Below are positions 5,844 to 25,676 of a stretch of 64,000 nucleotides of DNA, piece by piece. The DNA comes from Cyanobacteria bacterium M_surface_10_m2_119. Lineage in GTDB: Bacteria; Cyanobacteriota; Cyanobacteriia; PCC-6307; Cyanobiaceae. The position numbers and the translations under genes were made by a program. The DNA is taken from contig VGPU01000002.1 of the NCBI GenBank assembly GCA_016882525.1, positions 1 through 64,000 on the forward strand. The letters run 5' to 3'. The number at the start of each line of letters is the position of its first letter. Position 1 is the stretch's first letter. The notes beneath the pieces are model-generated. The model saw only the letters and a program-made list of their open reading frames with translations, did no database searches and was not told where the DNA came from.

Positions 5844-6668
5844 TCAGGGGTTGGACTGGACGGCGGATGGCGGCGGGGCGCCCCCAGTGAGGGCCAGCTC
5901 CGGCTGATTGGGATCGGTGAGGTCGATGGTGTGTGGCCGCTTGCCCTTGAGCTGGGCAGGAAGCACCGTCACCAGGTGACTGAGCACCTGCAGGCGTCGC
6001 TCCAGCTGGCTGTCGCTGGGGCCGAGCCGCACATTGCCCAGGCTGGCGCTCTCCACCCAGAGGCTGCCGCTGGGGTCGAAGCGGATCCGACGCAGGTCGC
6101 CCGCCAGTTCCTTGCTGTGCAGCAACACCTGGGTGAGGGCGGTCCGATGACGCGGTTGCCATCCCTGCACGAGCAGCTGATCGGAGGCGGATGTGCGCAA
6201 ACCCTGACCTTGTCGGGCGCTCATCCAGTTCCCCAGCCGATCGACATAGCCCAGTTCCAGGCCGCTGCTGTTCCGCCGCTCTGCCCGCGCCACCGGTTGG
6301 CGGTCCAGCAGTTCCACCCGCAGGCGCGGTGGGGCCATCAGCCGGCTCACCTGCACATCCTCCACCGGCAGGGCCGCCGAGAGGTCGCTGCCCAGGCGGC
6401 GTGGATCAAGGGTCAGCAGGGGCTGGGGAAAGCGCAGGTTGGCCGCCTTGATCACATCGGCGGCCGTCACCTGGCGGCTGCCCTGCACCTCCACCTGGTC
6501 GGGGCCGCGCAGCACCCAGCCCTGGCGCAGCAGGCCATAGCCGAGGCCTCCGGCCAGGGCCAGCAGCACCAGCATTCGCCAGGCGTTGCGCAGGCGCTCC
6601 TGGCGCTGTTGCTGCCGGAGCTGCCGGCGCCGTTCAGCGCCCGGAGGCAGGGGTCTGGCCTGGCTCAC
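5844..6668 (-). CDS. ftsQ: Cell division protein FtsQ (POTRA-domain membrane protein)
   Basis: This 274-aa protein has a basic cytoplasmic tail, one transmembrane helix (MLVLLALAGGLGYGLL, about residues 32-47) and a periplasmic POTRA domain (QVEVQGSRQVTAADVIKAANL and onward). A beta-type FtsQ domain follows. FtsQ bridges early and late divisome proteins. Its position between ddl and ftsZ is the classical division cluster order. The start ATG overlaps the stop of the upstream 136-aa gene by four bases (ATGA at 6665-6668), suggesting coupled translation. Confidence 0.9.
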   Translation of the reverse strand: MSQARPLPPGAERRRQLRQQQRQERLRNAWRMLVLLALAGGLGYGLLRQGWVLRGPDQVEVQGSRQVTAADVIKAANLRFPQPLLTLDPRRLGSDLSAALPVEDVQVSRLMAPPRLRVELLDRQPVARAERRNSSGLELGYVDRLGNWMSARQGQGLRTSASDQLLVQGWQPRHRTALTQVLLHSKELAGDLRRIRFDPSGSLWVESASLGNVRLGPSDSQLERRLQVLSHLVTVLPAQLKGKRPHTIDLTDPNQPELALTGGAPPPSAVQSNP

Positions 6669-7075
6669 AGCTCACAGCGGGAGCGGGCCATCAGCTCTCC
6701 CATCCAGCGGCGGGCCCGGTCCGCATCGGCGAAGGGCAGGTCCCTCTGCTGGCCATCGCCCACCAGGCGCAGGCGGCAGGCACCCTGGGCCTCCTCCGTG
6801 AGAGGCGCCTCGCCCGAGCGGAGCGCCAGCAGCTCCACCAGCTCCAGCTGCTTGATCACGAATTCCCCCTCAGGCTTGAGCTGGCCGGCCTCAAACGTGC
6901 TCCAGCTCAGCACCCCATCCAGCAGACGGGCGGCGCCGCAACCGTCGAGTTTCGCCAGCTCCGAGCCCTCCGCCCACTCGCGGAACAGGCGCTGGCGGCG
7001 ACGCTCCAGCCACCCCAGGGCCGTGAGCAGCACAAAAACCAGCAGCAGGGGCAGCCACAGAAGACCGTGACTCAT
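6665..7075 (-). CDS. Conserved hypothetical membrane protein between ddl and ftsQ
   Basis: A 136-aa protein with a single N-terminal membrane helix (LLWLPLLLVFVLLTALGWL) followed by a soluble domain of about 110 residues. I do not recognise a named family; proteins in this position are conserved in picocyanobacteria. The start ATG (MSHGLLW) lies in the last copy of a 17-bp tandem repeat that also creates four upstream mini-ORFs. Its stop overlaps the ftsQ start by ATGA. The context suggests a role linked to envelope or division, but this is inference only. Confidence 0.75.
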   Translation of the reverse strand: MSHGLLWLPLLLVFVLLTALGWLERRRQRLFREWAEGSELAKLDGCGAARLLDGVLSWSTFEAGQLKPEGEFVIKQLELVELLALRSGEAPLTEEAQGACRLRLVGDGQQRDLPFADADRARRWMGELMARSRCEL

Positions 7076-7129
7076 GGCAGGGCGTGACTCATGGCAGGGC
7101 GTGACTCATGGCAGGGCGTGACTCATGGC
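7067..7129. repeat. 17-bp tandem repeat at the ddl/orf136 junction
   Basis: The unit GTGACTCATGGCAGGGC occurs perfectly at 7067-7083, 7084-7100 and 7101-7117. A partial fourth copy (GTGACTCATGGC) covers 7118-7129. A diverged copy (GCCGACTCATGCC) follows at the ddl stop. Each copy carries CAT, an ATG on the minus strand. Because 17 is 3n+2, each ATG is in a different frame from its neighbour. Confidence 0.95.
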
Positions 7130-7143
7130 CGGTGCCGACTCAT
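7072..7143 (-). other. Chain of four overlapping six-codon mini-ORFs linking ddl to orf136
   Basis: Reading the minus strand, ATG at 7143 gives MSRHRP-stop, and ATGs at 7126, 7109 and 7092 each give MSHALP-stop. Every TGA overlaps the next ATG as ATGA. The first ATG overlaps the ddl stop (7140-7143) and the last TGA overlaps the orf136 start (7072-7075). No Shine-Dalgarno-like sequence occurs inside the units, so ribosomes would reach orf136 by repeated stop-and-restart. Expression of the peptides is unproven. Confidence 0.7.
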
Positions 7144-8288
7144 GCCGAAGGGCTGGGTACAGGCGCCAGGCGGTGCCATTGTCTCGCCCCTTCGATCAAT
7201 TCGTGCACCAACGCATCGAGTGCAACACCGCTGGCTGCCCAGAGCATCGGGTACATGCTCTGGCTGGTGAAGCCCGGCAGGGTGTTGATCTCATTGAGCC
7301 AGAGCTCGCCGCTGGCTTCGCTGAAGAAGAAGTCCACCCGCGAGAGCCCCTGGGCATTCACCGCCTGACAGGCCTGGATCGCCATCGCCCGGGCCCGCGC
7401 GCTGATGGCCTCGGGCACCACGGCGGGAATCACCGTGTGGCTTTTGCCCTCGCTGTATTTGGTGTCGTAGTCGTACCAGTCGGCGTCAAAGCAGATCTCG
7501 CCCAGTACCGAGGCCGCCAGCGGCGTGGCGCCACCGCCCTTCACGGCGCACTCCAGTTCCCGGGCCGTGACCCCCTGTTCCACCACTAGGCGGGGGTCGA
7601 GGGCCGCGGCCGCCGTGAGGCCGGCAAGCAGTTCTGCGCGGTTGCGCGCCTTGCTGATGCCCACGGAAGAGCCCAGGTTGGCCGGCTTCACGAAGCAGGG
7701 GTAGCACAGCTCCCCCTCCAGCCGCTCCAGCAGGGCCTGCGGATCGGCGTTGAGCTCACCGGCGTGCACGCAGGCGTAGGGCACCTGGGGCAGGCCGGCA
7801 GCGGCGAAGGCCGCCTTCATCGCCTGCTTGTCCATGCCCACGGCAGACCCCAGCACGCCTGAACCCACATAGGGCACCTGCATCAGGGTGAACAGGCCCT
7901 GGATCGTGCCGTCTTCGCCGTTGGGACCGTGCAGCACCGGAAACCACACGTCCATGTGAAGCGCGCCGGCGGGAAAGCCCTGGAAGCCGCCCTTGCCCAG
8001 GGCACAGCCGGTCCGCTGGGCTGCGGCGGTCAGTTGGTCTGCAGTGGCTGGCGTGCCCTGGACCAGCACGGTGTCCGCCAGCTCGGGACCCCACCAGCGG
8101 CCCTGGGGATCGATGTAAAAGCAGGTGGTGCGGTAGCGCCCGGCATTGGCGCCAGCTGCCAGAGCGCGCGCCACCGTGGCTGCTGAGCGGATCGCCACGG
8201 CGTGTTCGCCGGAGGCCCCTCCGAAGATCAGGCCCACCTGGATCAGACCATCGGACGGGGACGCGGAACTGGCAGGGGAGGGCATCAA
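7140..8288 (-). CDS. ddl: D-alanine--D-alanine ligase
   Basis: Ddl joins two D-alanines for the peptidoglycan stem peptide. The N-terminal motif [19 protein letters not shown], the ATP-grasp central region ([18 protein letters not shown]) and the C-terminal metal and substrate site ([27 protein letters not shown]) are all present. The length of 382 aa is normal for the cyanobacterial form, which has a large insert after the N-terminal strand. Two adjacent ATGs (MMPSP) could start it. It leads the orf136-ftsQ group and its stop forms an ATGA with the first mini-ORF. Confidence 0.95.
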
Positions 8289-23303: not shown

Positions 23304-24764
23304 GTGGCCCCGGTGAGCGCAGCCCCCTCCTCCGGTTTTGATTTCGATGTGATCGTGATCGGGGCCGGTTACGGCGGCTTCGACGCCGCGAAGCACGCCG
23401 CGGAGCACGGCCTGACCGTCGCCATCGTCGAATCGCGGGACATGGGTGGCACCTGCGTGAACCGGGGCTGCGTTCCTTCCAAGGCGCTGCTGGCCGCCAG
23501 CGGCCGGGTGCGGGAGCTGGCTGACGCCGAGCACCTGGCCGGCTTCGGCATTCATGCCGCCCCGGTGCGCTTCGAGCGCCAGAAGATCGCCGACCACGCC
23601 AACCAGCTGGTGGCCACGATCCGCGCCAACCTCACCAAGACCCTGGAGCGCGCCGGCGCCACGATCCTGCGGGGCAAGGGCCGCCTGGCTGGCCACCAGC
23701 AGGTCACGGTGCGCGAGAGCGGCAGCGGCGTGGAGCGCACCTATTCCGCCCGCGACGTGATCATCGCCACCGGTTCGGAGCCCTTCGTGCCCCGCGGCAT
23801 CGAGACCGATGGCCGCACCGTGTTCACCAGCGACGAGGCCGTGAGCCTGGAGTGGCTGCCCCGCTGGTTGGCGATCATCGGCAGTGGCTACATCGGCCTG
23901 GAATTCGCCGATGTCTACACGGCCCTGGGCTGTGAGGTGACGATGATCGAGGCCCTGGATCGGGTGATGCCCACCTTCGATCCCGACATCGCCAAGATTG
24001 CCGCCCGCAACCTGATCGATGGCCGCGACATCGATGCCCGCGCCGGCCTGCTGGCCCGCAAGGTGACCCCCGGCTGCCCGGTGAAAATCGAGCTGGCCGA
24101 CATGGCCACCAAGGAGCTGGTGGAGACCCTGGAGGTGGACGCGGTGCTGGTGGCCACCGGCCGGGTGCCGAGCAGCGCCGAGCTCAACCTGGCGGCCGTC
24201 GGCGTGGAGACCGAGCGCGGCTTCATTCCCGTGGATGACCACATGCGCGTGCTGGTGGGCGGTGAGCCGGTGCCGCACCTCTGGGCCGTGGGAGATGTGA
24301 CCGGAAAGATGATGCTGGCCCACACCGCCGCGGCCCAGGGCACCGTGGCCATTGACAACATCCTGGGCCATGGGCGCCGGATCGACTACCGCTCGATCCC
24401 GGCGGCCACCTTCACCCATCCGGAGATCAGCTCCGTGGGTCTCAGCGAGGTTGATGCCAAGGCCCTGGCCGCCAGGGAGGGCTTCGAACTGGGCGCTGTG
24501 CGCAGCTACTTCAAGGCCAACTCCAAGGCTCTGGCCGAGCTGGAGAGCGACGGCCTGATGAAGCTGCTGTTCAACAAGGCCACCGGCGAGGTGCTCGGGG
24601 CCCACATCTACGGCCTGCATGCAGCCGATCTCATTCAGGAGATCGCCAATGCCGTGGCCCGCCGCCAGAGCGTGAAGCAGCTGGCCAACGAGGTGCACAC
24701 CCATCCCACCCTGAGCGAAGTGGTGGAGGTGGCCTACAAGCAGGCCGCCATGGCTGTTGCCTAG
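23304..24764 (+). CDS. lpdA: Dihydrolipoamide dehydrogenase (E3)
   Basis: E3 reoxidises lipoyl groups of the pyruvate dehydrogenase and glycine cleavage complexes using FAD and NAD+. The FAD motif VIVIGAGYGGFDAAKHAA is near residue 16. The redox disulfide is in GGTCVNRGCVPSKALL (Cys51 and Cys56). The NAD motif is IIGSGYIGLEFADVY, and the C-terminal HTHPTLSEVVE carries the catalytic His. It resembles the plastid and cyanobacterial form. Its stop TAG lies in the first unit of an 18-bp tandem repeat. The start is GTG or TTG-like at 23304. Confidence 0.95.
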   Translation: MAPVSAAPSSGFDFDVIVIGAGYGGFDAAKHAAEHGLTVAIVESRDMGGTCVNRGCVPSKALLAASGRVRELADAEHLAGFGIHAAPVRFERQKIADHANQLVATIRANLTKTLERAGATILRGKGRLAGHQQVTVRESGSGVERTYSARDVIIATGSEPFVPRGIETDGRTVFTSDEAVSLEWLPRWLAIIGSGYIGLEFADVYTALGCEVTMIEALDRVMPTFDPDIAKIAARNLIDGRDIDARAGLLARKVTPGCPVKIELADMATKELVETLEVDAVLVATGRVPSSAELNLAAVGVETERGFIPVDDHMRVLVGGEPVPHLWAVGDVTGKMMLAHTAAAQGTVAIDNILGHGRRIDYRSIPAATFTHPEISSVGLSEVDAKALAAREGFELGAVRSYFKANSKALAELESDGLMKLLFNKATGEVLGAHIYGLHAADLIQEIANAVARRQSVKQLANEVHTHPTLSEVVEVAYKQAAMAVA

Positions 24765-24824
24765 CCCTCAGCTGTTGCCTAGCCCTCAGCTGTTGCCGAG
24801 CCCTCAGCTGTTGCCCAGCCCTCA
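24753..24824. repeat. Four tandem 18-bp units at the lpdA/AraC 3' junction
   Basis: The unit GCTGTTGCCTAGCCCTCA occurs at 24753-24770 and 24771-24788 exactly. Units three (GCCGAG, 24789-24806) and four (GCCCAG, 24807-24824) differ by one base. The first unit contains the lpdA stop TAG. Each unit also ends in TCA, a TGA on the minus strand, and the last of these is the AraC gene stop. Confidence 0.95.
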
Positions 24825-25676
24825 GCGGCGCGTCTGAGAGGGCTTCTCTCCGTAGCGCTCCTGATAGTGCCGGGCGGTGGTGCTGTTGCTGGGCAGCCCG
24901 CAGAGCTCCACGGTCTGCAGCAGGTTCCCTGGTCGGTCGACCTCCAGCAACAGCTGCCGCAGCCGCGAAAGCCGTAACTCCCGCAGGCTCTGCAAGGGCC
25001 GTTTGTTGAGGTGGCGCCGGAAGGCCATCTGCAGAGCCCGGGGCGACACCCCGGTGGCCACGGACAGCTCCGGCAGGCTGAGGTCGTCCTGCAGGCCGGA
25101 GCGCATGCGGCGCAGGGACTGGATCAGATGCTGCCAGCCCCGATCCCTGCGATACCCGCCGCCATCACTCCGGCAGGCCAGGAGCACGCCCACCAACAGT
25201 TCCACGATCTTCGGCTCCAGGCTCAACCACGCGCCAGTGCGCCCGTCCCGGCCATGGCCGTGGAGGGCATGCATGGCCTCGCGCAGTCGCTCGGTTTCGA
25301 GGCAATCGCGCTGCCCGCCCCGCTGGTGCCAGGGTTCGTCCACCACCAGCTTCTCGGCCAGGCCCTGGCGGTCTGCCGCCAGCACCAGGTGCTCCAACGG
25401 CAGCAGCAGCATCCAGCTGCCCGGGGGGGGGTGGCCGTTGGAGCCGGGAGGATCAATGGTCAGGCTCTCCAGCTCTCCACCACCCCCCATCTGCCAGCGC
25501 AGCTGGAGCTGATCGGTCCGGCATGTCCACGCGGAGCCTGCCGCAGCAGCTTGGAGGCTCAGGATCGGACCCAGGCTGCAGGCATGGGGTGCATCGGGCC
25601 GGGGCCGGAGCAGGAGACTGGGGGGAGTGTCGAGGGCAAGGCGGGGACGACCCTTGTCCGGCATGGGGGTGTGCAA
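24822..25676 (-). CDS. AraC-family transcriptional regulator
   Basis: A 284-aa protein whose last 100 residues carry two helix-turn-helix motifs of the AraC type: [25 protein letters not shown] and a second around [31 protein letters not shown]. The final FxxxYGxxP-like motif is conserved as RYGEKPSQ. The N-terminal part resembles the sensor region of AraC-binding-type regulators but has no ligand clue. It converges on lpdA, and its stop lies in the last repeat unit. Targets are not evident from the neighbours. Confidence 0.85.

Follow-up and report, generated by a model that had tools for sequence, protein, structure and literature searches.

Gene arrangement and start-stop array at the locus

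The window, a 64,000-nt stretch of a draft picocyanobacterial genome (Cyanobiaceae), contains a cell-wall and cell-division locus comprising ddl, orf136, ftsQ and ftsZ (Table 1). On the minus strand, the stop codon of ddl is connected to the start codon of orf136 through four six-codon ORFs of 21 nt each, by ATGA overlaps that occur five times at intervals of exactly 17 bp. We refer to this arrangement as a ladder and to the mini-ORFs as its rungs. Read directly from the minus strand, the array is CCTTCGGC ATGAGTCGGCACCGGCC ATGAGTCACGCCCTGCC (x3) ATGAGTCACGGTCTTCTG; the TGA of ddl (7142-7140) sits within the first ATGA, and from ddl towards orf136 the peptide MSRHRP is encoded once and MSHALP three times. 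Compared with rungs 2-4, rung 1 has different letters at 5 of the 17 positions, all of them outside the ATGA. This geometry, which is established here, bears out the ATGA-linked chain of four ORFs described in an earlier note on this DNA, including its arithmetic: with an ORF of 21 nt and an overlap of 4 nt, each 17-bp unit adds one more stop-restart step. The overlap between orf136 and ftsQ, given in the same note as a further ATGA, is in fact GTGA according to the ORF coordinates (6668-6665).

Table 1. Features of the ddl-orf136-ftsQ region (window coordinates).
Feature	Position	Strand	Description	Basis
ddl	7140..8288	-	D-alanine--D-alanine ligase	Pfam Dala_Dala_lig_N/C, NCBIfam NF002528, ORF
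Array	7066..7144	-	complete 17-bp tandem array, including the orf136 start	TRF
Rung 1	7123..7143	-	mini-ORF ATGAGTCGGCACCGGCCATGA, MSRHRP*	sequence
Rung 2	7106..7126	-	mini-ORF ATGAGTCACGCCCTGCCATGA, MSHALP*	sequence
Rung 3	7089..7109	-	MSHALP*, identical to rung 2	sequence
Rung 4	7072..7092	-	MSHALP*; TGA overlaps the ATG of orf136	sequence
orf136	6665..7075	-	function-unknown conserved cyanobacterial protein with hydrophobic N-terminus, between ddl and ftsQ	in 367/400 family genomes
ftsQ	5844..6668	-	POTRA_1	Pfam POTRA_1, ORF coordinates

TRF describes the array as 3.8 copies of 17 bp with 100% match (7066-7129) and also as 2.3 copies of 34 bp (7066-7144), and within 460 kb of the genome it is among the two strongest short tandem arrays. 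The pattern ATGA-N13-ATGA-N13-ATGA is confined to it in the whole 2.6-Mb genome; as it occurs nowhere else, a dispersed mobile repeat was rejected. The array has an unexceptional predicted mRNA fold (z 0.42), which is not better than that of shuffled sequences. No Shine-Dalgarno core precedes any of the five ATGs in the window, whereas 90 of 104 relatives have such a core ahead of orf136, which fits, and does not prove, a dependence on ribosomes coming from ddl.

The gene boundaries flanking the array were examined by comparison with relatives. The orf136 start at 7075 is sound, since the N-terminus MSHGLLWLPLLLVF aligns unshifted over about 105 relatives. A later or earlier start was rejected, because this N-terminus is conserved and no in-frame start lies between 7075 and the ladder stop. 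Rung 1 was also considered as a frameshifted remnant of ddl and rejected, as the length of the ddl tail agrees with that of relatives if the gene ends at the first ATGA. For the other end of ddl, the TTG at 8288 is simply the longest option. No Pfam or NCBIfam family matches orf136 above the cut-off.

The same junction in relatives and the origin of the array

Counting repeat units at this junction in related genomes, as suggested in the earlier note, gave mostly one plain 4-nt ATGA overlap, homologous to the first ATGA of the array, and no ladder in any of the approximately 105 relatives checked (one genome per species). A single overlap is thereby established as the ancestral state. Our script missed the ddl motif in 16 loci; 15 of these read ATGA at the orf136 start, and the other (L106) is a doubtful partial match. 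A few relatives have gaps of 6, 15, 22, 23, 30 or 31 nt between ddl and orf136, and since these organisms live, strict coupling is inessential at this junction.

Because these relatives have no ladder, the ladder at ddl-orf136 is, as far as the compared sequences tell, lineage-specific. The repeat unit ATGAGTCACGCCCTGCC matches the orf136 start of relatives, ATGAGTCACGGCCTGCT, at 15 of 17 positions; it is less like the orf136 of the window itself, in which codons have drifted. From this resemblance, the array appears to have arisen by tandem duplication of the start of orf136. Enough time would have passed since then for rung 1 and orf136 to diverge, with rungs 2-4 identical.

Start-stop ladders across the family

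If an ATGA junction is duplicated by n bp, the new ATG is in frame with the next TGA only if n = 2 mod 3. Given a duplication, the chance of this is one in three, so that a single ladder proves little alone, and we therefore made a family-wide test. Scans for three ATGAs at fixed spacing were set against a reversed-pattern control, with totals summed by hand from per-genome tables. The 17-bp spacing gave 93 matches versus 15 in the control across 400 genomes (53 versus 8 in a 161-genome subset) and the 14-bp spacing 67 versus 11; both lengths are 2 mod 3 and lie about six-fold above the control. The 11-bp spacing gave 38 matches versus 13, and the 16-bp spacing was not enriched (26 versus 18). 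At 20 bp, a frame-compatible spacing, few matches were found and enrichment was weak (16 versus 7), so that frame alone does not suffice for the size range. The 18-bp scan was dominated by in-frame coding repeats, which do not allow a fair judgement of context. On viral contigs, scanned for four ATGAs, there was no 17-bp excess (75 stretches at 17 bp versus at least 120 at 16 bp).

Ladders were classed as repeat-like if adjacent rungs were at least 50% alike outside the ATGA, and as lying at a gene join if an upstream ORF stops in the first ATGA and a downstream ORF starts at the last, where each ORF either counts 60 codons or more or continues beyond the end of the retrieved segment (both thresholds are our own choice). 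Exactly at a gene join were 18 of 46 repeat-like 17-bp ladders and 1 of 38 non-repeat matches; for single ATGA sites the share is 2.1% within the same loci and 11% in the GC-rich window genome. Many repeat-like ladders are without a clear upstream gene. In-frame stops are absent from the rungs of repeat-like 17-bp ladders (0 of 101, with 6.9 expected by shuffling), and non-repeat matches contain 14, with 14.1 expected.

The repeat-like 17-bp ladders occupy the joins of 12 gene pairs of unrelated functions, among them rfbC-rfbD, hisH-rsmD, EamA-glyoxalase, MFS-MlaE, HEAT-phosphatase, a pair that is probably menC-menE, and one of the formyltransferase-O-antigen-ligase-like type. The units at different joins have nothing in common but ATGA. 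At hisH-rsmD, a 17-bp ladder occurs in one genus and a 14-bp ladder in another.

Two species of one genus with the same upstream formyltransferase carry a 17-bp ladder in one case and a 14-bp ladder in the other (L335, L356). At the MFS-MlaE join, two 17-bp rungs are found in four genomes of one genus (L130, L134, L135, L136), with rung sequences wholly different between the two species pairs. A five-ATGA 17-bp ladder has no evident gene on either side (L138, G014:C149:1355-1426). The longest 14-bp ladder among those seen, with six ATGAs and thus five rungs, lies upstream of an 84-codon ORF (L362, G055:C21:158-231).

Surveys free of selection for ladders

The three-ATGA scans select for ATGA, so that finding it retained in them adds nothing independent; this selection is avoided only in the surveys of hisH-rsmD, of ddl-orf136 and of one genus. 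The orf136-ftsQ join was left out of them because ftsQ has several possible starts in one clade. That clade (L014, L015, L017, L021, L026) has a short ORF between orf136 and ftsQ that varies in length, and the ftsQ start is ambiguous.

We gathered the hisH-rsmD join by protein search alone in 110 genomes, again one per species. A 4-nt overlap (ATGA, GTGA or TTGA) is present in 94; the remainder consists of two 1-nt overlaps, one 10-nt overlap, one unreadable join and 12 expanded joins. All 12 expanded joins are gap-free full relays and none is frame-breaking: five have one 11-bp rung, four have one 17-bp rung (one of them starting TTGA), and one each has one 14-bp, two 14-bp or two 17-bp rungs. 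Three of the 17-bp cases belong to the window's own genus. Events in sister species are not independent; judged by eye, the expansions go back to roughly five separate origins. Under equal tolerance of the three length classes, five of five in frame would have a probability near 0.004. In one clade, three species have an 11-bp rung where a fourth has one of 17 bp; the 6-nt difference leaves the mini-ORF frame intact. At another join, surveyed in a genus of nine species, six have single overlaps and three sister species have 3, 3 and 2 rungs.

A probable relay that keeps the coupling

Our data suggest that duplicated overlapping junctions probably survive where the copy length keeps the stop-restart chain, so that the coupling of orf136 to ddl would be relayed and not lost. 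In this reading, the stop/start overlap of ddl and orf136 would have been expanded in tandem, most likely by replication slippage, each unit being a copy of the first 17 bases of orf136. As 17 is 2 mod 3, every added copy would form a full cistron of six codons, its stop sharing an ATGA with the start that follows. A ribosome ending ddl could then terminate and reinitiate five times in succession, at each rung and finally at orf136. Through such a five-step relay, the coupling to ddl of orf136, and via the GTGA also of ftsQ, would be passed on rather than broken. Frame-keeping ladders at many joins support the relay as the thing preserved; we infer that ribosomes pass through all rungs, that the filter on duplication lengths represents selection on coupling, and that the net effect of the ladder on output is small.

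The interpretation offered in the earlier note thus holds for the relay geometry. Its second element, that repeat number tunes the expression of orf136 and ftsQ, is possible, but found no direct support, and no other species compared has a ladder at ddl-orf136. Its neutral alternative, a junction duplication that does little because the geometry is preserved, fits better than tuning, although tolerance itself appears to need a working relay.

Alternative explanations

On a rheostat reading, selection would act on how many 17-bp rungs there are, and this number would set the output of orf136 and ftsQ, with slippage supplying the variants and a fixed fraction of ribosomes lost (or added) at each step. 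Rungs 2-4 are identical, as in a recently changing array, the rung number varies among sister species at another join (3, 3 and 2), and the missing Shine-Dalgarno core, present in most relatives, would make output relay-dependent. We nevertheless consider this explanation rather unlikely, because the ddl-orf136 ladder occurs in no other species compared and the genes at ladder sites have unrelated functions. Similarly doubtful is its extension to picocyanobacteria in general, according to which minimal start-stop ladders would be recurrent and evolvable, with rung number and length as selected coupling settings of a slippage-driven rheostat that works via reinitiation alone. Another improbable explanation takes the array for a slippage duplication without a translational role; on this view, orf136 has an independent start at its own ATG, and the ATGA chain follows incidentally from duplicating an ATGA junction. 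A ladder arises automatically if the duplication length is 2 mod 3, a one-in-three chance, and ddl and orf136 are uncoupled in some relatives. Moreover, the second strong array of the window (24753-24826, 4.1 copies of 18 bp, GCTGTTGCCTAGCCCTCA) duplicates the 3' end and TAG stop of a dihydrolipoamide-dehydrogenase-like gene, with the stop lost in two later copies, which shows that slippage duplications at gene ends occur without start-stop logic. Against such an inert spacer speak the chain kept in 12 of 12 expanded hisH-rsmD joins, the enrichment of 14 and 17 bp but not 16 bp, the rungs free of internal stops, and the orf136 ATG without a Shine-Dalgarno core.

Two further explanations carry very little weight. 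A binding role is possible for tandem repeats near start codons and has been proposed for TAACTGA repeats (PMC4679880); the array could accordingly be a DNA- or RNA-binding element, or a structured RNA, that contains ATGA by chance. This is highly improbable, as units at different joins have only ATGA in common and the repeat period is tied to the reading frame; a structured RNA was rejected on the folding prediction, which is no better than for shuffles. That assembly inflated a single junction is scarcely credible either, even for a draft genome in 118 contigs: the array is shorter than 80 bp and hence below ordinary read length, rung 1 and the last copy are unlike the middle copies, and similar ladders are present in single-contig genomes, e.g., G006 and G035.

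Comparison with known systems

The nearest known system is that of the mycobacterial MIRUs, for example in senX3-regX3: repeats at gene joins with an internal ORF that shows -4 nt coupling (Supply et al. 1997, cited in PMC12548453; PMC4213456). Their tandem copies vary between strains, with three 77-bp units or two 77-bp units and one 53-bp unit (PMC12548453; PMC4213456); by our own arithmetic, both lengths are 2 mod 3. The ddl-orf136 repeat unit likewise holds an ORF with -4 nt coupling to those next to it. However, each ladder array is built from its own junction, whereas MIRUs are one dispersed, apparently mobile sequence family, and ladder units measure 17 bp at ddl-orf136 and 11, 14 or 17 bp elsewhere, compared with the several times longer MIRUs of 53-77 bp. 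Home-made at each junction and several times shorter, the ddl-orf136 ladder is therefore not a MIRU.

It is established that genes overlapping at an ATGA can be translationally coupled by termination-reinitiation (Huber et al. 2019, PMC6728339). The ancestral 4-nt overlap of ddl and orf136 is of the most common type, and every rung repeats it; in contrast to the known cases, with one stop-start step between two real genes, there are up to five steps here, which run through ORFs shorter than the ribosome footprint. Natural uORFs and bicistronic designs use short upstream ORFs to deliver the ribosome to a gene (reviewed in PMC12548453). The rungs resemble them as meaningless short ORFs whose stop overlaps the next start, but the ladder is naturally tandem, made of repeats and located inside an operon. 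In some cyanobacteria, TAACTGA heptamer repeats stand in tandem just upstream of start codons (PMC4679880), as the ladder does directly before the orf136 start; unlike the ladder, they are a single common 7-bp sequence without start codon or reading-frame logic. In the open-access literature searched, we found no description of start-stop ladders in cyanobacteria.

Implications

Related species thus have comparable ladders that preserve the frame at further gene joins. Nature has in this way set up experiments on the number of successive stop-restart steps open to a bacterial ribosome when the ORFs, at four to six codons, are shorter than its footprint, and the ladders supply ready test constructs. 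The frame filter on junction duplications provides comparative evidence that very short relays work in living cells. The ladders furthermore show a mutational route by which overlapping gene pairs gain spacing while their coupling is kept.
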